This document shows, in pieces, positions 4,504 through 14,284 of a DNA stretch of 34,821 nt. Numbering within the stretch: position 1 is the stretch's first letter; every line of letters starts with the position of its first letter. This DNA is from a virus: IMG/VR virus record IMGVR_UViG_3300030044_000055, positions 1 to 34,821 of that record; one strand, written 5' to 3'. The notes beneath the pieces are model-generated. The model saw nothing but the letters and a program-made list of their open reading frames with translations, was not told where the DNA came from and did not search any database. Both the position numbers and the translations under genes were made by a program.

Positions 4504-4986
4504 TTAGCTTTTAGCTCCAGATCTCAAGTCTTCCCTGACTTTCATCAAAACTTCACCAAGCCAATTTTTGCCACGCCACTTTGATTTATCGAATCGGTCA
4601 GGATCTCTTTCAGACAGCCCGATACCCCAAATACGGTCTACAGGGCTGGCTTCAACAATTTCCTCATTATGGGTAGAAAGAATAAATTCCTTCAAATAAG
4701 GAGTTGCGAACTTAGCCATATTGGCCTTATAAACGAACCCTCTAGACACAGCATCCCAAGACTCTGCGTCAAAGTTCTTAACCATCCTACCGGTTGCTTT
4801 TTGGGTAGAAGGGTCATGAGCTTTCATGATCTTGGCTAAGGCGTCCGTATCATTGAAATAAGTGGCCTTCATAGCCATCATATACTGTTCTGCACAGTTA
4901 TACTTTACTCCATCGATCTCAAATACGCTCCTATACCATTGGCTAAAGGGTCCACCGTAGAAAAAATGAAACTTTTCATCACCCAT
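4504..4986 (-). CDS. NADAR-domain protein (YbiA/RibX superfamily)
   Basis: A 160-aa single-domain NADAR protein. The family hallmarks are present: FYGGPFSQWY (9-18), YNCAEQYMMAMKA (29-41), ASPVDRIWGIG (113-123) and GKNWLGEVLM (139-148). Characterised members cleave N-glycosidic bonds, including removal of ADP-ribose from guanine in DarT-type toxin systems, and riboflavin intermediates in YbiA. The ATG at 4986 is preceded by AAGGAG with 7 nt spacing and overlaps the Nampt-like stop codon by 8 bp. A longer in-frame start at 5049 lies deep inside that gene. Next to a NAD+-rebuilding pair it may release ADP-ribose from modified nucleic acid; this is inferred. Confidence 0.9.
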   Translation of the reverse strand: MGDEKFHFFYGGPFSQWYRSVFEIDGVKYNCAEQYMMAMKATYFNDTDALAKIMKAHDPSTQKATGRMVKNFDAESWDAVSRGFVYKANMAKFATPYLKEFILSTHNEEIVEASPVDRIWGIGLSERDPDRFDKSKWRGKNWLGEVLMKVREDLRSGAKS

Positions 4987-6451
4987 TTGCGTTCTCCTTA
5001 AGTTTTGCCCTGACTTGAGCGAAACTTTCTTCTCGGACCAGCTTACCATCTTTGAAGATGGGTTGCAAGAGATCCGTTGAAAGCTCCGAATTTAGGTCGT
5101 GGCCATCGCTAAAGGTAATCTTTCCGCCACTTTTGTAGACATGAACCTTACCTTTTTGAGATTTTTTGATTCCATCATCAGTCTTTGGGTCTTTGAAGAT
5201 CTGCTTTTCAACGCCATTTATGACACATAAAGTGCTCTTGAGAGCAAATCCGAAGGTATCACGAGTATTGTACTGATAGGTATACGACCCAATCCCAAAA
5301 ACCACGTTAATGGAAGCGAATCCTTTTTCAGCCAACTTAGTTACAATATCTTTAGCCCTAAAAAGGGTGATGGCGTCTCCATAGATCAGGCCAATGTGAG
5401 AATCGAGGACTTTATATCCTTTTCCGGTTTCAGTGCCTCCGAAGATATCCCAAAGGGCTTCGACTGCGCCCTTATACTCCAAACTACCCTTAGGTGCATC
5501 TGGATCACCACAAACGATCTTAACTGGGTCACCGGAATCAGGTCGAATGACAACACGGCCATCACGAGCCATGATTTTGTCTTTAAGGGCTGGAATAACC
5601 CTACCGATAACATCCCAGAAATCATACCCATCGGAAACAATGGACACGAAGCCCGAAGGATGTACTACGGACATCATTTGAGTCAGGTATTCCAAGTCAT
5701 TACCGTAGCTACATTGGATAGAGTGCTCGGTGGCTGGAATCGATGTCCCAACCAACTCTTTTTCAACATTGGCTCCATAGTAGTATTCTGCGGCCTGAAT
5801 GGCGGGAATCGTGTCCGTACCAACGAAGGAGAGGAGGTGCCCCATCCCACTCGACATTGCAGACTGAAGGGAAGACATACCGCGAAAGCTAAAATCATGC
5901 CCTTGGAAGGGAACGAAATCAGTATTTCCAACCGTTTTCAGAGAAGCTTCATCCAAGATCTTCCGATATTCTCCAGCAATAGTTGCTGAAGTCGAAGGCT
6001 GCCAAAGCTGGCAGGAAGCCAAGCTCTCAACAAAATTGGTAAGCCAAAAGAAGCGCTTATCGGTGTTTTGAATGGTCATCATTGGAACCCGCAAAGGTAC
6101 CAAAGTCCCTTCTGGGACAGATTTAATCAAAAGAGGAAGGTACCCAAGATCATGCAGCTCTTCGATATGCTTTGTCTCTGGATTAGCAACCCCTAGAGTA
6201 TTCTTGATAATTCTGGAATATTCTTTAACTACGTCGGCCTTAGCTTGGTGGAAAAAATTCAGATTGAAGAAATCGATCAAAAATTCCTTGATGAAAGCTT
6301 GCTGACCAAAGGCTACCACTTCGTCAACGCCTTTCATACGGCTAGCACGAGGGGTCCAAGTTGAAAACACCACTTCGGTACCAACCGGGTACATATTTTT
6401 ATGACTAACCTTATAGAAATCGGCCAACAACATTGCGTTCAGATTTTTCAT
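4979..6451 (-). CDS. Nampt-like NAD+ synthesis enzyme, candidate NARP1 Namat
   Basis: Nicotinamide phosphoribosyltransferase-like enzyme of 490 aa, close to the length of characterised Nampt. Active-site segments are conserved: HDFSFRGMSS (R190), SFVGTDT (D213), TEHS (H243) and VIRPDSGDP (R303, D305). The N-terminus ADFYKVSHKNMYP is also typical. Alone it would be called Nampt. Because it follows a PRPP-synthetase-like gene and no NMN adenylyltransferase is present, the better candidate is Namat of the phage NARP1 pathway, which joins nicotinamide to ADP-ribose pyrophosphate to give NAD+ directly. The start at 6451 has an AGGA-like site and clears the upstream gene by 10 bp; an earlier in-frame start at 6490 overlaps it. 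Confidence 0.9.
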   Translation of the reverse strand: MKNLNAMLLADFYKVSHKNMYPVGTEVVFSTWTPRASRMKGVDEVVAFGQQAFIKEFLIDFFNLNFFHQAKADVVKEYSRIIKNTLGVANPETKHIEELHDLGYLPLLIKSVPEGTLVPLRVPMMTIQNTDKRFFWLTNFVESLASCQLWQPSTSATIAGEYRKILDEASLKTVGNTDFVPFQGHDFSFRGMSSLQSAMSSGMGHLLSFVGTDTIPAIQAAEYYYGANVEKELVGTSIPATEHSIQCSYGNDLEYLTQMMSVVHPSGFVSIVSDGYDFWDVIGRVIPALKDKIMARDGRVVIRPDSGDPVKIVCGDPDAPKGSLEYKGAVEALWDIFGGTETGKGYKVLDSHIGLIYGDAITLFRAKDIVTKLAEKGFASINVVFGIGSYTYQYNTRDTFGFALKSTLCVINGVEKQIFKDPKTDDGIKKSQKGKVHVYKSGGKITFSDGHDLNSELSTDLLQPIFKDGKLVREESFAQVRAKLKENANG

Positions 6452-6461
6452 ATATAATATC

Positions 6462-7229
6462 CTATATTTGAATTGTGCCTTGACGTTCACTTACTTCACC
6501 AGCGTGAGTGAAAATCCGTTGGATACCCGATTCGAAGAGAGTTCTAGTTCCCTTCGAAAAGATCCCATGAGTCACGAAGAGCACCACGCTCTTTGCACCC
6601 GCAGCCAGTAGGTCTTTGGCCAAAAGTTTAAATGTCATACCGCCATCACAAATATCGTCCACTATGAGAACAGTTCCGATAGGCGTTCCAATCAGTTTAT
6701 AGCTTGTAATGTTGCCGGTGAGCTGATCTCGAACCTTCTCACCATAGATATGGCCACCCTTAAGCAGATTGATATATTTCTCGAAAGCGCCAGCATCTGG
6801 ATAACAGAAAAGGTTTGCTTCTACAAGCTTTGCGACCTCATAGATCTTATCTACAGGGTAAATAGCTTTAAAATTATAGATAAGCTCCTCGGCCACAGAA
6901 CTATGTGGGTCCATGCAGATAACTTCCTCGAACCCAAGATGGTTGAGAAGTTCAGCGAAGGCATAAAGAGCAAATGTAGCGGTATTGCTAGGCTCCTTAT
7001 CTTGGCGACCATAAGGAAGATAGGGAAGTCTGAGTACTGTCCTAAAATCGTAATGATCTAGGAGCAACTTAAGTTGAGCAAGTTGAAGGAATTCACCTTC
7101 ATTGCTAAACTCCCAAGTTACATGAGCAAAATTGGTTGTAGTGAGGATTTCTTCGGGGAGCTTCCAGACCTGAGAGGTATTGTCTGAAAACATAGTGGTG
7201 GGAACGGGAAGACCGTTTAAGTATAGCAT
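6462..7229 (-). CDS. PRPP-synthetase-like kinase, candidate NARP1 Adps
   Basis: A short (255 aa, versus about 315 for bacterial Prs) ribose-phosphate pyrophosphokinase homologue. Motifs: YLPYGRQDKE (70-79), MDPHS (106-110), PDAGAFEKY (144-152), flexible-loop region EKVRDQLTGN (164-173) and the PRPP-binding loop VLIVDDICDGGMTF (187-200). In phages with NARP1, this type of protein (Adps) pyrophosphorylates ADP-ribose instead of ribose 5-phosphate, supplying the substrate for Namat. The adjacency to the Nampt-like gene supports that reading, but a genuine PRPP synthetase feeding Nampt is the alternative. Ribosome-binding site AAGGAG lies 6-8 nt before the ATG. An extended -10 promoter lies 75 nt upstream. 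Confidence 0.9.
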   Translation of the reverse strand: MLYLNGLPVPTTMFSDNTSQVWKLPEEILTTTNFAHVTWEFSNEGEFLQLAQLKLLLDHYDFRTVLRLPYLPYGRQDKEPSNTATFALYAFAELLNHLGFEEVICMDPHSSVAEELIYNFKAIYPVDKIYEVAKLVEANLFCYPDAGAFEKYINLLKGGHIYGEKVRDQLTGNITSYKLIGTPIGTVLIVDDICDGGMTFKLLAKDLLAAGAKSVVLFVTHGIFSKGTRTLFESGIQRIFTHAGEVSERQGTIQI

Positions 7230-7727: not shown

Positions 7728-8420
7728 CTAAATATACTTAAAAATTAGTCCGTGCGTGTGAGGTCTTTCGCCGCTACAAACTCTAGCAATTGCCTGAAAA
7801 TTTATTCCCAATACTTTAGCGGCTTCCATAAGAAATGGATAAACTGTTCCAGTTGTAACGCAAAGTACTTTCTTACGTCTAGGAGAGGGTCTTCCCGTAC
7901 TATACTCTCTTAATGCCTGCCTTTGTTTTTCCGTAACGGATTTGCCGCCAAAATTAGGATTGTTCGACCCAGATCTAGACTCAGACATTTTATTTCGAGT
8001 TTTCTTCGAGCACTTTTTACCAAAATTAGCCTTGGCTATTTTATCTCTGGTTTCTTGAGAGGGTGCTTTCCCCGGCCTTCCCTTGTGTATCTTAGACAGC
8101 TTGTCTTTGGTTGATTGATGGGTCCTTCTATTTTTACCACCGCTGTCCAAATTATACCCATTGGGAGATAACGTGTTGAATATCTTGATGTAGTATTCTT
8201 CTCTGTGATTCATTTCTTCAATAGAGGCGCATCTAGCCAATACTTTGATTTCAAAGTTCTCCCTGCCATACTTTTGGATGGCTCTCACAATAGGCATATT
8301 TCTGTGTTTAGAGTTGGGAGTCAGATTGCAATGTTGGCACCATCGCTTCTCCAACCTTTGGACTGTTTGTCCGATATATCGATTTCCGCTTATTTTATTG
8401 GTTATCATGTAAATCAACAT
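7728..8420 (-). CDS. GIY-YIG homing endonuclease with NUMOD3 repeats
   Basis: Free-standing homing endonuclease of 230 aa. The N-terminal GIY-YIG nuclease domain (IYMITN, then GNRYIGQT, with the following QRLEKRW arginine and the glutamate in MNHREEYYI) spans about 1-95. Basic NUMOD3-type DNA-binding repeats follow (KDKLSKIHKGR, RDKIAKANFGK, NNPNFGGKS), and the C-terminus (VLCVTTGTVYPFLMEAAKVL) resembles a NUMOD1/HTH module. It makes site-specific double-strand breaks to spread its own gene. It separates the protease gene from the left-arm operon and has its own TTGACA-17-TATGAT promoter. No Shine-Dalgarno sequence precedes the ATG; the predicted message is almost leaderless. Confidence 0.9.
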   Translation of the reverse strand: MLIYMITNKISGNRYIGQTVQRLEKRWCQHCNLTPNSKHRNMPIVRAIQKYGRENFEIKVLARCASIEEMNHREEYYIKIFNTLSPNGYNLDSGGKNRRTHQSTKDKLSKIHKGRPGKAPSQETRDKIAKANFGKKCSKKTRNKMSESRSGSNNPNFGGKSVTEKQRQALREYSTGRPSPRRKKVLCVTTGTVYPFLMEAAKVLGINFQAIARVCSGERPHTHGLIFKYI

Positions 8421-8431
8421 AATATGGTTAT

Positions 8432-8460
8432 ATCATAGAACTATTTACGTTTTTTGTCAA
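8432..8460 (-). promoter_or_regulatory. Sigma70 promoter for the GIY-YIG gene
   Basis: On the minus strand TTGACA (8460-8455), exactly 17 bp, then TATGAT (8437-8432). The -10 box is 11 nt from the ATG at 8420, so the 5' untranslated region would be only about 2-5 nt. The -35 lies within the 3' end of the protease gene. Confidence 0.65.
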
Positions 8461-9865
8461 CAAGTAGAATTAAGGATCTCTCTAGATCTAAAGACTTACT
8501 TAGGGCCAGAGCGCGGCCAACAGCCTTGATCTCTCCAAGAGCAAGATGAGGCATCCTAGCAGACATAAACTTCTCAAAAGCTTCTCTTTGAGGCCAACGC
8601 TCGTACTCGTCCTTAGAGCGCTTATTCCAATCAGTCTTTTTCTTGGTGCCCTGAAAATTGTGATCTTCAGCTCCAGTCTTTGCTTGCTTTGAAGAAAGCC
8701 CTTCAACCTGATAAGCTGCGCCATTAACTAATGAGGAAGGAGCTGCATTATAACTTCCAGCCTCTACGGCCTTCTGAAGAGGTTTTTGTTTCGATTTATC
8801 TTTTTTGCTAAGCCCGAGTCCGCTTGAGAGATTGGACATAGCTTGACTAAAAGATGTCCCGCCAGATGTACCTCCATTTTGCATAGATTGAGCATTAGCA
8901 GCATTTGGTTCAGCTGGAGGAGCGGCCATGTTAGCGTCTTTTTTAAGATCTTCTCCCTTAGCCATGGGTTCACTTTTGTTAGCAAAAGCTAAGTGCCTTT
9001 TAGCGCTATCAAAATGGGTAGCACCTGGAACCCCCTTACCAGCTTCAGCGTTAGAATAGTGAATATTCCCAGCGTCTCTGTGGTCTTGAGTAGACCAACC
9101 CTTATAGTCGTTAGGCTTGAGATGGCTCATTACATCTTTGCCGCTTTTAGTCTGCCCAATAGGAATGCCCGGCATCTTAGCTACTGAACTAATGGGGCCG
9201 AATTTTGGAGTATGTTTGAAATCGATTTCTTTTTTAAGCAAGAACTGATCGTAAAGTCTAGAGCCTTCGTCCGATTTAAATAATGTAACCGCTTCTTGTT
9301 CGGATCGAAATAGGGATTCAAACTCATCTTTTACCGCAGAATCCATGGCCTCATCGTATATTTCGGCTATACACATATGGTTTGCTGGGGTAGAAGTCAA
9401 CGTGACCTTACGAGCAATAGACCTGCCAATCAAAATCTTATTGACCCTGGATCCTGGTAGCTCTGAGCCCTCAACTGAGAAACCTAAAATGGCCTGTAGG
9501 TCTGGACGGTCTTTGCTGTATTTAAACTTACCGGCACATTCCCTGGCGCTATCGCAATAATCATCTAGGAGTTCGGCCAAAATATAAACAAATGGGATTT
9601 TAGTTTTGTTCCAGAAGTATGTTTCGCTGGGGGTGGTGCAGTCGCTGGAACTAAAGAGCTTCTTAGCCTTAAGGATTTTTCCGACAATTTGGGCCGGAAG
9701 CTTAATGGTAATAAGCTTACCCTCAGCGTCTTTGCCTTGATCGTGCTCAAAGTTCAAAATTCCACTGCGAGCAAGAGAGGTTATGTCTAGCCCACGAATA
9801 TCTACGATTTCACTAGCAGTATCAATAGATTGGACTGAAGCGCAACCATGAATAAACGTCGACAT
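8441..9865 (-). CDS. Prohead protease with C-terminal extension (474 aa)
   Basis: Predicted capsid maturation serine protease. The N-terminal 170 residues show the HK97/S78-like pattern: GILNFEHDQG (candidate H41), a strand-rich middle, and AILGFSVEGSE (candidate S130) followed by RKVTLTSTPAN. Beyond this is a long extension: a module IGQTKSGKDV...DHRDAGNIHY...HFDSAKRHLA (236-292), a low-complexity A/S/G/Q linker, then KAVEAGSYNAAPSSLVNG (365-382), which is nearly identical to the N-terminus of the major capsid protein, and a basic C-terminal domain. The ATG at 9865 follows an AGAGG site and a CCAATCTTA element; a longer in-frame TTG at 9925 lies inside the HNH gene. It is encoded opposite to scaffold and capsid genes, unlike the usual order. 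Confidence 0.8.
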   Translation of the reverse strand: MSTFIHGCASVQSIDTASEIVDIRGLDITSLARSGILNFEHDQGKDAEGKLITIKLPAQIVGKILKAKKLFSSSDCTTPSETYFWNKTKIPFVYILAELLDDYCDSARECAGKFKYSKDRPDLQAILGFSVEGSELPGSRVNKILIGRSIARKVTLTSTPANHMCIAEIYDEAMDSAVKDEFESLFRSEQEAVTLFKSDEGSRLYDQFLLKKEIDFKHTPKFGPISSVAKMPGIPIGQTKSGKDVMSHLKPNDYKGWSTQDHRDAGNIHYSNAEAGKGVPGATHFDSAKRHLAFANKSEPMAKGEDLKKDANMAAPPAEPNAANAQSMQNGGTSGGTSFSQAMSNLSSGLGLSKKDKSKQKPLQKAVEAGSYNAAPSSLVNGAAYQVEGLSSKQAKTGAEDHNFQGTKKKTDWNKRSKDEYERWPQREAFEKFMSARMPHLALGEIKAVGRALALSKSLDLERSLILLVDKKRK

Positions 9866-9875
9866 AAAAATACCT

Positions 9876-10634
9876 CTAATAGATAAGATTGGAGAGGAGT
9901 TTGTCGCTTTTAATGATGTTCTCAATATGCCACATAGGCTGCAGGTTAGTATAGTGATTTGCCCTTAAGAATTGTTCTCTATCTGTCAGATCGATCCTGG
10001 AAAGTGGGAATATGTGATCTAGACTCCATTGCCCCTCCTTATTTCCGTAGTTATCCCAGGACATACCTGATTGCCATAGGGATTCGATATATTTACAAAA
10101 ATCTTCTATACTGCAGCCTAAATCTCTCACAGCGGAACCGGATTTAGGCTCTTTTATTCCCGTTTTTACGTACTGGGCCATCATATTAGTTATGCGAGTT
10201 CTCAGGCTGCATTTAAGTTTAAATGCGGGATCTACCCTCTTTCTTTCCTTCGCATAACGGACTTGCTCTTTACTATAGCATTTTTTACAAATTGCGGCAA
10301 ATCCAGGCTTAGGGCCTTCTACCAGGCGTAACTTTCTTTTCTTAAAACTTTTTAGGTCCTTGATTTCCTTACATTTCGTACAAATTCTTATTCCCAGTTC
10401 GGCATGTTTTCTTTTTTCTTCAATTTTCTTTTTGGTATCGCTTTTACGTTTTTCCTCACGAATTAAACGGGCTTCATCCGCGATAAGCATGAGTTTCCAT
10501 TTTTCGTCTCTTTTTTCTTGCTTAATTTTCTTTTCGCACTCCTTGCAATGTTCTCTACGGCCATCCATAGCCTTTTTGCGTTTAGAGAACTTGATTAAGT
10601 CTTTGTTTTCTTTACATTTAGTACAGGTCTTCAT
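9876..10634 (-). CDS. HNH homing endonuclease with N-terminal zinc finger
   Basis: A 252-aa HNH nuclease. It begins MKTCTKCKENKDLIKFSK, a CxxC...CxxC treble-clef zinc finger shared with two other HNH genes here, and a second CTKCKEIKD finger follows at about 85. A long basic, coiled region lies between. The C-terminal domain contains WSLDHIFPLS with the catalytic DH, then NHYTNLQPMW and ENIIKSDK, the HNH core. The ATG at 10634 is chosen over an upstream TTG at 10658 because it aligns with the start of the gene at 13748; there is no Shine-Dalgarno sequence. The 3' end comes 10 bp before the protease start and contains the protease promoter element. Confidence 0.88.
   Translation of the reverse strand: MKTCTKCKENKDLIKFSKRKKAMDGRREHCKECEKKIKQEKRDEKWKLMLIADEARLIREEKRKSDTKKKIEEKRKHAELGIRICTKCKEIKDLKSFKKRKLRLVEGPKPGFAAICKKCYSKEQVRYAKERKRVDPAFKLKCSLRTRITNMMAQYVKTGIKEPKSGSAVRDLGCSIEDFCKYIESLWQSGMSWDNYGNKEGQWSLDHIFPLSRIDLTDREQFLRANHYTNLQPMWHIENIIKSDKLLSNLIY
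9884..9892 (-). promoter_or_regulatory. CCAATCTTA element upstream of prohead protease
   Basis: On the minus strand CCAATCTTA ends 18 nt before the protease ATG, with an AGAGG ribosome-binding site between them. It overlaps the last codons of the HNH gene, so that gene's 3' end carries the promoter of the capsid gene it borders. Confidence 0.55.
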
Positions 10635-10639
10635 ATAGA

Positions 10640-10648
10640 TAAGATTGT
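10640..10648 (-). promoter_or_regulatory. ACAATCTTA element directly before HNH gene
   Basis: On the minus strand ACAATCTTA followed by TCTAT and then ATG. The 5-nt gap, and the absence of a Shine-Dalgarno sequence, predict a leaderless message. The block AATCTTATCTATATGAAG is identical in front of the HNH gene at 13748. Confidence 0.5.
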
Positions 10649-10742
10649 CTCGATTCAAATGTTCTATATCATGGGATTGTTTTTTGATTACTAAAACTGT
10701 TTCTAATAACTATATGTTTTCATACACTATTTTTTCGTAATA

Positions 10743-10796
10743 CGAATCTTACCTTTGAAACCAATTGGTTAAGCCGCATTTATCGATAGAAGCGGC
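10743..10796 (+). promoter_or_regulatory. Leader of the capsid operon: CGAATCTTA element and hairpin
   Basis: CGAATCTTA (10743-10751), a variant of the recurrent element, lies 85 nt before the first capsid-operon gene. A hairpin follows: GCCGC (10773-10777) pairs with GCGGC (10792-10796) around a loop containing the palindrome TATCGATA. This may stabilise the 5' end of an abundant message. The rest of the 10649-10836 gap is AT-rich with no gene visible. Confidence 0.4.
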
Positions 10797-10836
10797 AACT
10801 TAGTACTAAATATAAGATTTTTAAGGAGAATTTATC

Positions 10837-11304
10837 ATGGCCCTTTACTCACTTGATCATGCCATTGGCGTCGCTCGCGACCTTCAAGACCGTCTCTCTC
10901 TTCGTATGGCGAATAGCGCCGGAATCAACACCTGGCGTGCTGCGCAAGACGCGATGGGCTGGCCCGAGTTGTTCGGTAGCCATGGCGGTAACGAAGCTGA
11001 AGGTCAGCCCGTTCTCTTCATCCGTTTGATGAATATCAATCCTACGACTGATATTTTTGGCAATACGACTTACCCTTTCACGCCTACTCAGACGCAACTC
11101 GCTTATGAGCTGAACAGCGCTGGCGCTCCATTCCCTACGACTGCTGATTATACGACCGCTGCCTTTGAAATTACTCGCACTGGCACTGTTTTTCAGGAAA
11201 TTGCTATTGCAAATGGTACGGCTGTTACTGAAGCTTCAGTGAATGCTGCTACTCCTGTTCAGACGCTCAAAAGTATTGATTGGGGCTTCCAAGGTAACAC
11301 GTAA
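10837..11304 (+). CDS. Putative virion protein upstream of scaffold (155 aa)
   Basis: No family is recognised. Sequence is soluble, with an N-terminal helical segment (SLDHAIGVARDLQDRLSLRM) and a strand-rich T/A/N-rich C-terminal half typical of small virion proteins. A strong ribosome-binding site (AAGGAG, 8 nt) precedes the ATG, and codon choice resembles the major capsid gene (many C-ending codons), suggesting high expression. It is first in the order 155-aa protein, scaffold-like, major capsid, so a capsid decoration or head-vertex protein is plausible. Confidence 0.7.
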   Translation: MALYSLDHAIGVARDLQDRLSLRMANSAGINTWRAAQDAMGWPELFGSHGGNEAEGQPVLFIRLMNINPTTDIFGNTTYPFTPTQTQLAYELNSAGAPFPTTADYTTAAFEITRTGTVFQEIAIANGTAVTEASVNAATPVQTLKSIDWGFQGNT

Positions 11305-11333
11305 TAATTGGAATCATAAGAGGAGACCAAATT

Positions 11334-12212
11334 ATGTATACCGAAACAGACCTCAACAAATTGATAGCCGACGTGACGAACGAGTTCACGGCTCATCTTG
11401 CCAAGGCTGAAAAATCTTTCAGTCTTGCCAAATCTGAAGAATTCCCTCCTAAGAAGGAAGAATCTAAAGAAGAAAAGAAGCCGATGGAACACGAAAAGCC
11501 TGAAGATAAAGGTGTTAAAGACCAGCATCAACAGGACACTTCTAAGGAACCCGCTAAAGAAGAAAGCAAGGAAGAATCCAAAGAAGAGCGTTCTGCTGCC
11601 GATGGCAAAGAAAACGCAAAGCCTTCTGATGACCCTCATGGCGAAGCCCAGGATCATGGCTATGATGACGAAGATATGCAACATATGCACAGTATGTACT
11701 CTTCAATGTCTGGACCTGAACTGAAAGCTCATCACGATGCAGTCCGTAAGTGCATGGATGGTGCTATGGCTAAATCTGAAATGGAAGATGGCGCTAAAGA
11801 TGCTCAGGGCTATCGTCCAAACGGTGGTGCTAAAGATGGCGAAGCTGCGAGTAGCAAAACTCCAGCATCTAGCGATATGCAAGCTATGGCTAAGTCTGAA
11901 AAGGACTCTAGTTCTGAAGTTAGTTTGCTCAAATCGGAACGCGATGAGTACAAGAAAAACTTGGATGCAGTCTCTGCTTTCTTGACGAAATTCGTCGAAA
12001 AAACGGCTCCTGCAGGTAAGGCAATCACGTCACTGGACATTATCGCTAAAAGCGGTAACGAAGGTAGCGAAAAGCCTCTCCAAAAGAGTGAGATCGACGC
12101 TAAGCTTCTGGCTAAAGCGAAAGATATCTCTCTTTCTAAGTCGGACAGAGATGCCATTAACAGTTACTACTTCAGTAAAAACGTCGAAACAGTTCGTCAT
12201 CTGCTTAAGTAA
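11334..12212 (+). CDS. Scaffold-like prohead core protein
   Basis: A 292-aa highly charged protein immediately upstream of the major capsid gene, where scaffolding or prohead core proteins usually lie. The N-terminal third has a long K/E-rich low-complexity stretch (PPKKEESKEEKKPMEHEK and similar). A coiled-coil segment (VSLLKSERDEYKKNLDAV) lies near residue 200, and the C-terminus is helical and basic. The peptide pattern AKSE/LKSE/QKSE occurs six or more times (LAKSEE, MAKSEM, MAKSEK, LLKSER, LQKSEI, LSKSDR), which could be protease processing sites. A GAGGAG site precedes the ATG. No sequence-level homology is claimed; role comes from position and composition. Confidence 0.7.
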   Translation: MYTETDLNKLIADVTNEFTAHLAKAEKSFSLAKSEEFPPKKEESKEEKKPMEHEKPEDKGVKDQHQQDTSKEPAKEESKEESKEERSAADGKENAKPSDDPHGEAQDHGYDDEDMQHMHSMYSSMSGPELKAHHDAVRKCMDGAMAKSEMEDGAKDAQGYRPNGGAKDGEAASSKTPASSDMQAMAKSEKDSSSEVSLLKSERDEYKKNLDAVSAFLTKFVEKTAPAGKAITSLDIIAKSGNEGSEKPLQKSEIDAKLLAKAKDISLSKSDRDAINSYYFSKNVETVRHLLK

Positions 12213-12245
12213 GCGTGACAAAATTTAAGAAACAGGAGAATTAAA

Positions 12246-13643
12246 ATGCTTGAACAACTTCAGTCCCTTATGAAAGCGCTTGAGGCGGGCAGTTACAATG
12301 CCGCACCAAGCACGTTGGTGCAAGGTGCCGCTTACCAGATCGAGGATCTCGCTCCTGTGATGGTGAACGTGACCGCTGCCGAAGAAACTATCAAACTGCA
12401 GAAAATGCTCGACGTTCGTAATACGAAGAGCAACCTCTACCAGTATAACCGTAAATTGTCGGTTGGCCGTTTCGGCGGTTCAGCTGCTTACGAAGGTATG
12501 CTGGGAGCCAAGAAAACCGGTCAAGCTGCTCGCTTGGTCGTGCCTATGGCTTACTACGTTGATACGCGCGAACATTCGCTGGTTGCGAATGCCGTTGAGA
12601 CGTTTGACAAGGTTACCGCTGAAGAGCGCCAGGCCCAGGATGCGGCCCTCAACCTCGCTCAAGATATCGAGTTCGACCTGTTCGCAGGTAACTCTGACTT
12701 CTCAAACAACGGAGTCTTCGATGGCAATCCTGCCCTAGTTCCTGCTCTTGCCAACATGCGCGGGTTTGACCTTCAGGTTCGCGCTTCGGATTATGAACGT
12801 AACGGACAAGATCTCATGTTCGCTTCGTACGGTTCGAGCGCAACGGTTGTGTTCTCTGCTGGTGGCGGCACTCTGACGCAATCCCTCATTGAAGACATCT
12901 CGGTTCGTTCTGCCCTTAACATGGGTCGTGCGGACAAGCTGATGCTGGACCCTTCGTCCCTCTCGTCCTACAACAAGATCAGCCAGGCTAAAGAACGTAT
13001 CGTTCTCGCTGGTTCTCCTCAGGAAGCTACCGGTTCGCATCTGCGTACCCAATGGACTTCGAGCGGTGCGATTACGTTGGAGATGAGTCAATATCTTCGT
13101 AAGCAGATCAGCCCTGTCAATCAGCAGATCTTTGGCGCTCCTGTAGCTCCAACGCTCTCCGGTGCTGACACTGGCGCGGCTGGTTCCTTGATCTCCGCTG
13201 GCACGTATAGCTACGTTGTCGCTGCTGTGAACCAGGTCGGTGAAGGCCCTACGTCGAATCCTCCTACGGCTGTCGTTGTGGCAGCTACGGGCGACAAGGT
13301 GACTTTGACGATCGGTGCAGTTGCCGGTGCTCTCTACTACCGCGTTTACCGTACTGGTAATGCTGGTAGCCCTGGTTCGGAACTGTTCATTGGTAACATC
13401 GCGGCCACCCCATCGGGCGCTTCGTTCACCGATCTCGGTAACCTTAGCCCAGGCGGTCTCACTGGATTCTTGATTCAGCGTGACTCAGCCCATATGGGCG
13501 AGCTTTCGGGATTCAAGAAACTCCAGCTCGGCATCTCGCAGCTCTCTATCAACAACGCGTTCTATCGTTGGACTACGCTTGCTGTTGAAAGTCCTCGTAA
13601 AAACGCAATCGTCGGTAATCTGCAAGGACAGGTCTATACCTAA
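12246..13643 (+). CDS. Major capsid protein with Ig/FN3-like insertion
   Basis: The 465-aa protein has major-capsid features: N-terminal arm KALEAGSYNAAPSTLVQG (10-27), then a core (VGRFGGSAAYEGMLGAKK, REHSLVANAVETFDKV, AQDIEFDLFAGN) and a C-terminal strand segment (NAFYRWTTLAVESPRKNAI). Residues about 295-400 form an inserted beta-sandwich (AGTYSYVVAAVNQVGEGP ... ALYYRVYRTG), with FN3/Ig-like character, probably displayed on the capsid surface. Codon use is rich in C-ending codons compared with neighbours, as expected for the most abundant protein. An AGGAG site precedes the ATG and a strong terminator follows the stop. The N-terminal arm is nearly repeated in the protease C-terminal region. 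Confidence 0.88.
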   Translation: MLEQLQSLMKALEAGSYNAAPSTLVQGAAYQIEDLAPVMVNVTAAEETIKLQKMLDVRNTKSNLYQYNRKLSVGRFGGSAAYEGMLGAKKTGQAARLVVPMAYYVDTREHSLVANAVETFDKVTAEERQAQDAALNLAQDIEFDLFAGNSDFSNNGVFDGNPALVPALANMRGFDLQVRASDYERNGQDLMFASYGSSATVVFSAGGGTLTQSLIEDISVRSALNMGRADKLMLDPSSLSSYNKISQAKERIVLAGSPQEATGSHLRTQWTSSGAITLEMSQYLRKQISPVNQQIFGAPVAPTLSGADTGAAGSLISAGTYSYVVAAVNQVGEGPTSNPPTAVVVAATGDKVTLTIGAVAGALYYRVYRTGNAGSPGSELFIGNIAATPSGASFTDLGNLSPGGLTGFLIQRDSAHMGELSGFKKLQLGISQLSINNAFYRWTTLAVESPRKNAIVGNLQGQVYT

Positions 13644-13747: not shown

Positions 13748-14284
13748 ATGAAGACCTGTACTAAATGCAAAGAAAGCAAAGAAATTAAGTTTTTCGGTAA
13801 GGCTAAATTGGGCAAAGATGGCTTAAGAGCTATTTGTAAAAAATGCCACAACACCGAGACTACTCAGCGCAATAGAGACAATCCTGAAAAAGCAACCGCG
13901 TATGGTCGAAAATATCGTGAAGAAAAACGAGAACAGATTTCAGCAAGTCGGGCCATTCATACGGCTCAAAATAAGGAATCTTTAACCCTATACGCTGAAG
14001 AGTACAGAAAGGCCAATCCTGGGAAGATCAATGCTAAGACGGCTAAACGTAGGGCTGCGAGGCGTAAGGCCGTTCCCAAATGGTTGACCAAAATTCAGCT
14101 TCAAGAAATGCAGAATTTTTATATCTTTGCGTCCTTGTGGTCTCTTTTAACTGGAATTCCGCATGAAGTTGATCACATAGTACCGCTTCAAGGTAAAAAC
14201 GTAAGAGGTCTACACGTACCTTGGAATCTGAGGGTTATTACGCAGGAAGAAAATCGTCATAAAAACAACAAGATGATTTCTTAA
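13748..14284 (+). CDS. HNH homing endonuclease
   Basis: A 178-aa HNH nuclease. N-terminal zinc finger MKTCTKCKESKEIKFFGK ... CKKCH, then a basic helical linker, then the HNH core: IPHEVDHIVPLQGKN, VRGLHVPWNLRVIT and EENRHKNN with catalytic DH. It is paralogous to the gene at 25615 (both have IPHEVDHI(V/L)PL and GKNVRGLHVPWNL) and shares its first codons with the gene at 9876-10634. It lies between the capsid terminator and a convergent minus-strand gene, and has its own promoter signals. Confidence 0.9.
   Translation: MKTCTKCKESKEIKFFGKAKLGKDGLRAICKKCHNTETTQRNRDNPEKATAYGRKYREEKREQISASRAIHTAQNKESLTLYAEEYRKANPGKINAKTAKRRAARRKAVPKWLTKIQLQEMQNFYIFASLWSLLTGIPHEVDHIVPLQGKNVRGLHVPWNLRVITQEENRHKNNKMIS

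Follow-up and report, generated by a model that had tools for sequence, protein, structure and literature searches.

The window analysed here, the whole 34,821-nucleotide stretch of the viral record IMGVR_UViG_3300030044_000055, encodes a prohead (head maturation) protease and a major capsid protein (MCP) that carry almost the same peptide of 26 residues. Residues 365-390 of the protease, which we call the N-arm mimic, match residues 10-35 of the MCP, within its N-terminal arm (N-arm). The features concerned are:

8441..9865, minus strand: prohead protease gene, 474 aa from MSTF, matching phrog_1028 head maturation protease (E=2e-9)
8696..8773, minus strand: N-arm mimic KAVEAGSYNAAPSSLVNGAAYQVEGL, protease residues 365-390, 21/26 identical to the MCP segment
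11334..12212, plus strand: probable scaffolding protein, 292 aa, with nine [LIMVF]xK[SAG] sites, directly upstream of the MCP gene, as in SPO1
12246..13643, plus strand: MCP gene, 465 aa, HK97-fold family of SPO1 gp6.1, matching phrog_752 (E=4e-39)
12246..12275, plus strand: MCP leader MLEQLQSLMK, predicted to be cut off at K10|A11, the sole [LIMVF]xK[SAG] site in the MCP
12273..12350, plus strand: MCP N-arm segment KALEAGSYNAAPSTLVQGAAYQIEDL, MCP residues 10-35

Between K365-L390 of the protease and K10-L35 of the MCP, 21 of 26 residues are identical (consensus of both copies KA[VL]EAGSYNAAPS[ST]LV[NQ]GAAYQ[VI]E[GD]L), as are 51 of 78 bases, and 5 of the 21 codons at identical residues are shared. 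The whole proteins match in BLASTP at E=8e-11, and the identical proteins at locus L007 gave an own-pair Smith-Waterman (SW) score of 114, with a maximum of 53 in 30 shuffles. No further copy of the peptide was found in the window or in its 166-kb parent contig (166,169 bases). An initial annotation, made from the DNA letters without database searches, had reported a near-identical peptide in the two proteins, with correct coordinates and residue numbers; the segment it described is the core of a similarity that reaches ~57 residues in SPO1-like relatives.

The window module, from a large phage, belongs with the SPO1/Herelleviridae superfamily, having a phrog_752 MCP, a phrog_1028 protease and the K-site motif in scaffold and MCP. 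Three scans of viral contigs and phage records yielded 154 non-redundant loci of this superfamily with both genes, loci in which the MCP profile matched the protease through the mimic being left out. The first 95 residues of each MCP were compared with the protease and with the other open reading frames (ORFs) of 100 aa or more at that locus, a match being an SW score of at least 55. The protease matched its own MCP N-terminus in 149 of the 154 loci, and 1 of 2691 other ORFs did so; together, the shuffles and the other-ORF control rule out chance as the source of the match. That single ORF (L147:9700-10392, minus strand) scores 65 and may be a chance match. Of the five proteases below the threshold, three (L093, L078 and L048) retain a segment recognisable by eye, in L245 it has moved, and Bacteroides phage DAC16 is without it. 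The contrary outcome set out beforehand, homologues carrying the segment solely in the capsid protein, was looked for and did not occur.

Annotated relatives carry the mimic too, each in its own residues: SPO1 has KSLEAGYEVDPEKMEGGDVFRKESL in the protease and KALEAGHTVNPLDLEGGGAFRVESL in the MCP, Thermus phage Cumys has TAGDPHALDPKSGLTGVPAIRRESLE and TAGDPHALDFKAGLSGVPAIRLESLE, and Pseudomonas phage Touem01 has KSLEAGYGSDMANLSGGSAMRMQSL and KSLQAGYGSDMNDLSGGSALRIQSL, respectively. SPO1 protease residues 161-217 match residues 15-71 of the solved SPO1 MCP at E=2e-6, and independently built PHROG profiles of protease and MCP cross-match through the mimic segment. Whole-contig searches usually returned two copies per genome, one in the MCP and one in a single other protein. 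The protease/MCP pairs of HK97, T4 and Felix O1 were not clearly above shuffles (HK97 scored 47, with a null maximum of 57), ruling out the mimic as a trait of all HK97-type phages. In Thermus phage Lalka8, the protease (L002:7348-8268) has a degenerate mimic in which the K-to-LE spacing of 27 residues is kept and most letters have changed, unlike its relative Cumys. A 161-aa ORF in another relative (L269:1291-1776) contains a stretch like the MCP N-arm and its following residues (LLKSSAECEGSALQIEDLCPIMECVTF), either a third partial copy or a remnant.

Codon identity at identical residues was 0.440 across the 149 pairs (3397 identical residues), compared with 0.449 expected from codon usage. 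As this is the level of chance, the copies are not recently duplicated DNA, and recent duplication or gene conversion is ruled out, in agreement with the initial annotation. In phages with N-arm identity of ~0.5 or lower, 8251 quartets (which overlap and are not independent) grouped each mimic with its own MCP, 43 grouped orthologues and 5 were crossed: at ~50% identity or less, the distance from mimic to own MCP is smaller than that between orthologues. Across 74 disjoint sister pairs, at N-arm columns that differed, the mimic followed its own MCP 112 times and the sister's 39 times, with 36 columns fully tracking and 5 swapped. The own-pair signal of the deep quartets and the tracking of lineage-specific residues argue that selection keeps the copies matched, and lend strong support to the earlier suggestion of selection on both. 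That the match is a functionless relic of an ancient domain duplication or gene conversion is hardly credible; the two segments do look homologous, but codon identity at chance, dominant own-pair quartets and residues that track the MCP superfamily-wide all speak against it.

The shared segment begins at a hydrophobic-x-K motif followed by A or S. In each of the three groups, the K (P1) is conserved at 94-100% in protease and MCP. P3 is hydrophobic and otherwise little is kept upstream; the similarity covers ~26 residues beyond K|A, in the portion of the arm retained by the mature capsid. K-A is invariant in seven divergent MCPs, and a deposited chain of a relative MCP (9row_B, 439 aa) is without the first 24 of 463 precursor residues, appearing to start immediately after ...DVVK, a mature N-terminus deduced from chain length only. 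Because of the conserved motif and the start of 9row_B, K10|A11 is likely to be the maturation cut of the MCP and K365|A366 that of the protease. Hydrophobic-x-K|[S/A/G] occurred 1280 times in the 154 scaffolds versus 235 in shuffles (a fivefold enrichment, about 8 per protein) and about once per MCP N-terminus; it was threefold above chance in proteases and not above chance in the MCP body. None of the ~1280 scaffold K sites is followed by the ~25-residue extension, and no scaffold ORF in the 154 loci matches the MCP arm.

Among the meanings proposed in the initial annotation was a shared cleavage site, and were the segment kept solely as a sequence that the protease has to cut both in itself and in the MCP, the enrichment of the motif in scaffold and protease, its occurrence about once per MCP N-terminus and the apparent start of the deposited chain would all be accounted for. 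A cleavage site, however, covers approximately P3 to P2', whereas the match extends 20 or more residues downstream and changes with the MCP, and as other sites for the same protease in the same genome, those of the scaffold, go without the extension, cleavage alone does not explain the match. As a full explanation it is very improbable indeed, holding for the first residues (K|A/S) and failing for the rest.

The phrog_1028 match of the window protease is confined to residues 4-47, its homologue in Myxococcus phage Mx1 matches at 35% over residues 3-191, and a Pfam search returned no match, so it falls below the Peptidase_S78 cut-off that the SPO1 and PMS2 homologues pass; the His and Ser columns are invariant (H43 and S132 in model numbering). 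By predicted local distance difference test (pLDDT), an AlphaFold2 (AF2) model gives a folded protease domain (~1-176), a disordered linker, the mimic (365-390) and a helical C-terminal domain (~409-474). The catalytic and C-terminal domains are confident, and the long disordered stretch between them holds the mimic, itself disordered except for one short helix. In Foldseek, the nearest solved fold was herpesvirus protease 1o6e (probability 0.94, modest E=5e-3).

A second proposed meaning is a pseudo-substrate, considered here as a pseudo-substrate or exosite acting in cis, in which the protease would recognise the MCP N-arm over its length and the mimic would fill that site, leaving an inactive zymogen until assembly, when K|A autocleavage would release it. 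The mimic does begin at the cleavage motif with its conserved P1 Lys, and co-variation of both copies with the protease groove would be expected. Against this, the scaffold sites are presumably cut without any extension, the AF2 model (from a shallow alignment) does not place the mimic on the protease domain, the linker from protease domain to mimic varies in length by hundreds of residues, and one lineage has the peptide on a protein that is not a protease, its protease being without one. We therefore consider a pseudo-substrate unlikely, and weaker than docking as an explanation.

In that lineage, the protease of contig L245 has its catalytic domain and no mimic, and NLKKTLTAGIPSGAPSTLTGGEALQKESL lies instead in an 893-aa protein without a protease domain, encoded in the same co-directional gene cluster; in a second contig (L246), the second copy likewise lies in an 893-aa frame. 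The location of the mimic on this protein uncouples it from regulation of the protease and suggests that its carrier is packaged. The 893-aa carrier at L272:1322-4000 (minus strand), from a phage with a mimic-less protease, has ADP-ribosyltransferase-like and acetyltransferase-like stretches by eye and no Pfam match. In related phages, the mimic-bearing frame runs to 1100-1500 aa, with kinase-like or GGDEF regions in three. Mimic-bearing proteases with markedly different extra regions (PI3/4-kinase-like, GGDEF, LRV/HEAT repeats and, by eye, a lysozyme-like stretch) lie at L001:5288-9007, L273:4210-8076, L274:3147-7037, L275:3448-7866, L016:7980-9641 and L216:1775-4744, as though the protease carried cargo to be packaged.

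To a match that is directly established, conserved, co-varying with its own MCP, found on one non-coat protein per genome, sharing a cleavage motif and once transferred to a non-protease, the reading we favour adds a function, in which the protease's copy of the N-arm of the phage's own MCP serves as a docking (encapsidation) peptide. We consider this fairly probable. In the procapsid of phage SPP1, the MCP N-terminus is bound by scaffold, and contacts between the N-arm and neighbouring subunits come later (PMC6813328); a copy of the arm on the protease would accordingly be expected to bind the same partner. Before maturation, the mimic would engage the procapsid partner of the MCP N-arm, most probably scaffolding protein or an adjacent coat subunit, and the protease would thereby be incorporated into the prohead in the manner of a coat subunit. 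Once active, it would cut the MCP and itself at hydrophobic-x-K|A/S, in its own case at the mimic and also at K197 after the catalytic domain, and these cuts would release the protease from the shell while trimming the coat protein. A docking peptide is the best fit among the three meanings in the initial annotation, since the match lies downstream of the scissile bond, in the mature arm, tracks its own MCP and occurs once in a non-protease, although the binding itself is our deduction. The wider proposal, a superfamily-wide encapsidation tag through which one protein per genome (normally the protease, often with fused cargo enzymes) would enter the head in the guise of a coat subunit, to be freed by cleavage of the bond that matures the coat, seems to us evenly balanced.

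The protease is present in purified particles of three herelleviruses (PMC5618024, PMC12282133, PMC3601020), two of the three author groups treating it as residual or undissociated. Its presence in virions fits docking and does not prove it. Detection of the prohead protease in virions by mass spectrometry, the conserved K|A in the protease and the folded domain after the mimic would also suit a permanent capsid component, an autocleaved C-terminal fragment that begins like the mature MCP arm and remains part of the shell, for example at the portal vertex, with its C-terminal domain serving as a minor structural protein. The proteomics papers, however, do not specify the fragment detected, and two of them call the protease residual or undissociated, and the domain after the mimic differs between groups; we judge a permanent component very unlikely.

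Several observations weigh against docking as we read it. The conservation of P1 K is equal in protease and MCP, and cleavage must therefore matter too. Virion proteomics is silent on which part of the protease is retained, and the AF2 model of the window protease family was built from 25 sequences, a shallow alignment, with a mean pLDDT of 66. Counted by sister pair, co-variation favours the own MCP by 27 to 14 with 33 ties (p=0.06), for which reason we grade the tracking of mimic and own MCP, as judged from sequence comparison, as moderate in the short term and strong in the long term. The 893-aa carrier represents one lineage, its two contigs possibly being one virus. Lastly, DAC16 has an SPO1-like MCP and protease, with no mimic and no copy elsewhere, and because of this the mimic is dispensable in some lineages.

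Around these genes, the window's head module is not collinear: the protease lies on the minus strand, apart from scaffold and MCP, with a homing-endonuclease-like ORF and an ORF without assignment in between, whereas SPO1 has portal, protease, scaffold and MCP in collinear order. The MCP is 47% identical to that of Mx1, and the probable scaffolding protein has no PHROG or Pfam match of its own. Homing-endonuclease-like ORFs flank the protease, downstream at 7728-8420 (GIY-YIG with NUMOD3) and upstream at 9876-10658 (HNH-like, by eye). Between protease and scaffold, a 155-aa ORF (10837-11304) has no family matches; Mx1 and L016 have ORFs of similar size at this position. Downstream of the MCP lies an endonuclease-VII-like ORF (13748-14284), and adjoining homologues of nicotinamide phosphoribosyltransferase and ribose-phosphate pyrophosphokinase (4979-7229) possibly form an NAD+ salvage pair.

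How a maturation protease enters the prohead is poorly understood, and the match offers a concrete, testable answer for a large group of phages that takes in SPO1 as well as the phages of staphylococci and Listeria applied in therapy and food safety. Cleavage sites in scaffold, MCP and protease follow from it as predictions, and it suggests that cargo enzymes fused to these proteases are packaged through the same tag, one that could be used to load proteins into such heads. Our literature search found no description of a match between protease and MCP N-arm.

Among the closest known systems is the SPO1/Herelleviridae head module (gp3.2 protease, gp3.3 scaffold and gp6.1 MCP), in which MCP and protease are homologous to those of the window and the same mimic is present; the window protease differs in lying on the opposite strand, apart from scaffold and MCP, and in having a long insert before the mimic. 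Encapsulin cargo-loading peptides are likewise short linear peptides that place an enzyme inside an HK97-fold shell, but the cargo peptide is not known to derive from the shell protein's N-arm or to involve a maturation cleavage. In herpesvirus UL26/UL26.5 and lambda C/Nu3, sequence in common with another assembly protein takes the maturation protease into the procapsid, and the window protease has its nearest fold, at a modest E-value, in the herpesvirus enzyme. Those systems share scaffold sequence through overlapping reading frames, whereas here separate genes share the coat arm, alike as protein and with independent codons. In T4, a short capsid targeting sequence (CTS) is common to head proteins, ends in or near the protease cleavage site and is cut at maturation (PMC9026906), and a targeting role for the propeptides of T4 gp21 has been suggested (PMC9026906). 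As proposed for the phages described here, a short shared peptide brings proteins into the prohead, and it can carry cargo (PMC9026906). The T4 peptide, however, has ~10 residues, is N-terminal, precedes the cut, is discarded and is common to internal proteins, whereas that of the window phage has ~26 residues after the cut, copies the MCP arm and lies inside the protease; T4 gp21 and gp23 showed no such match. With the coat protein's own arm as the shared element, the mimic is a new variation on both the T4 CTS and the scaffold-sharing proteases.

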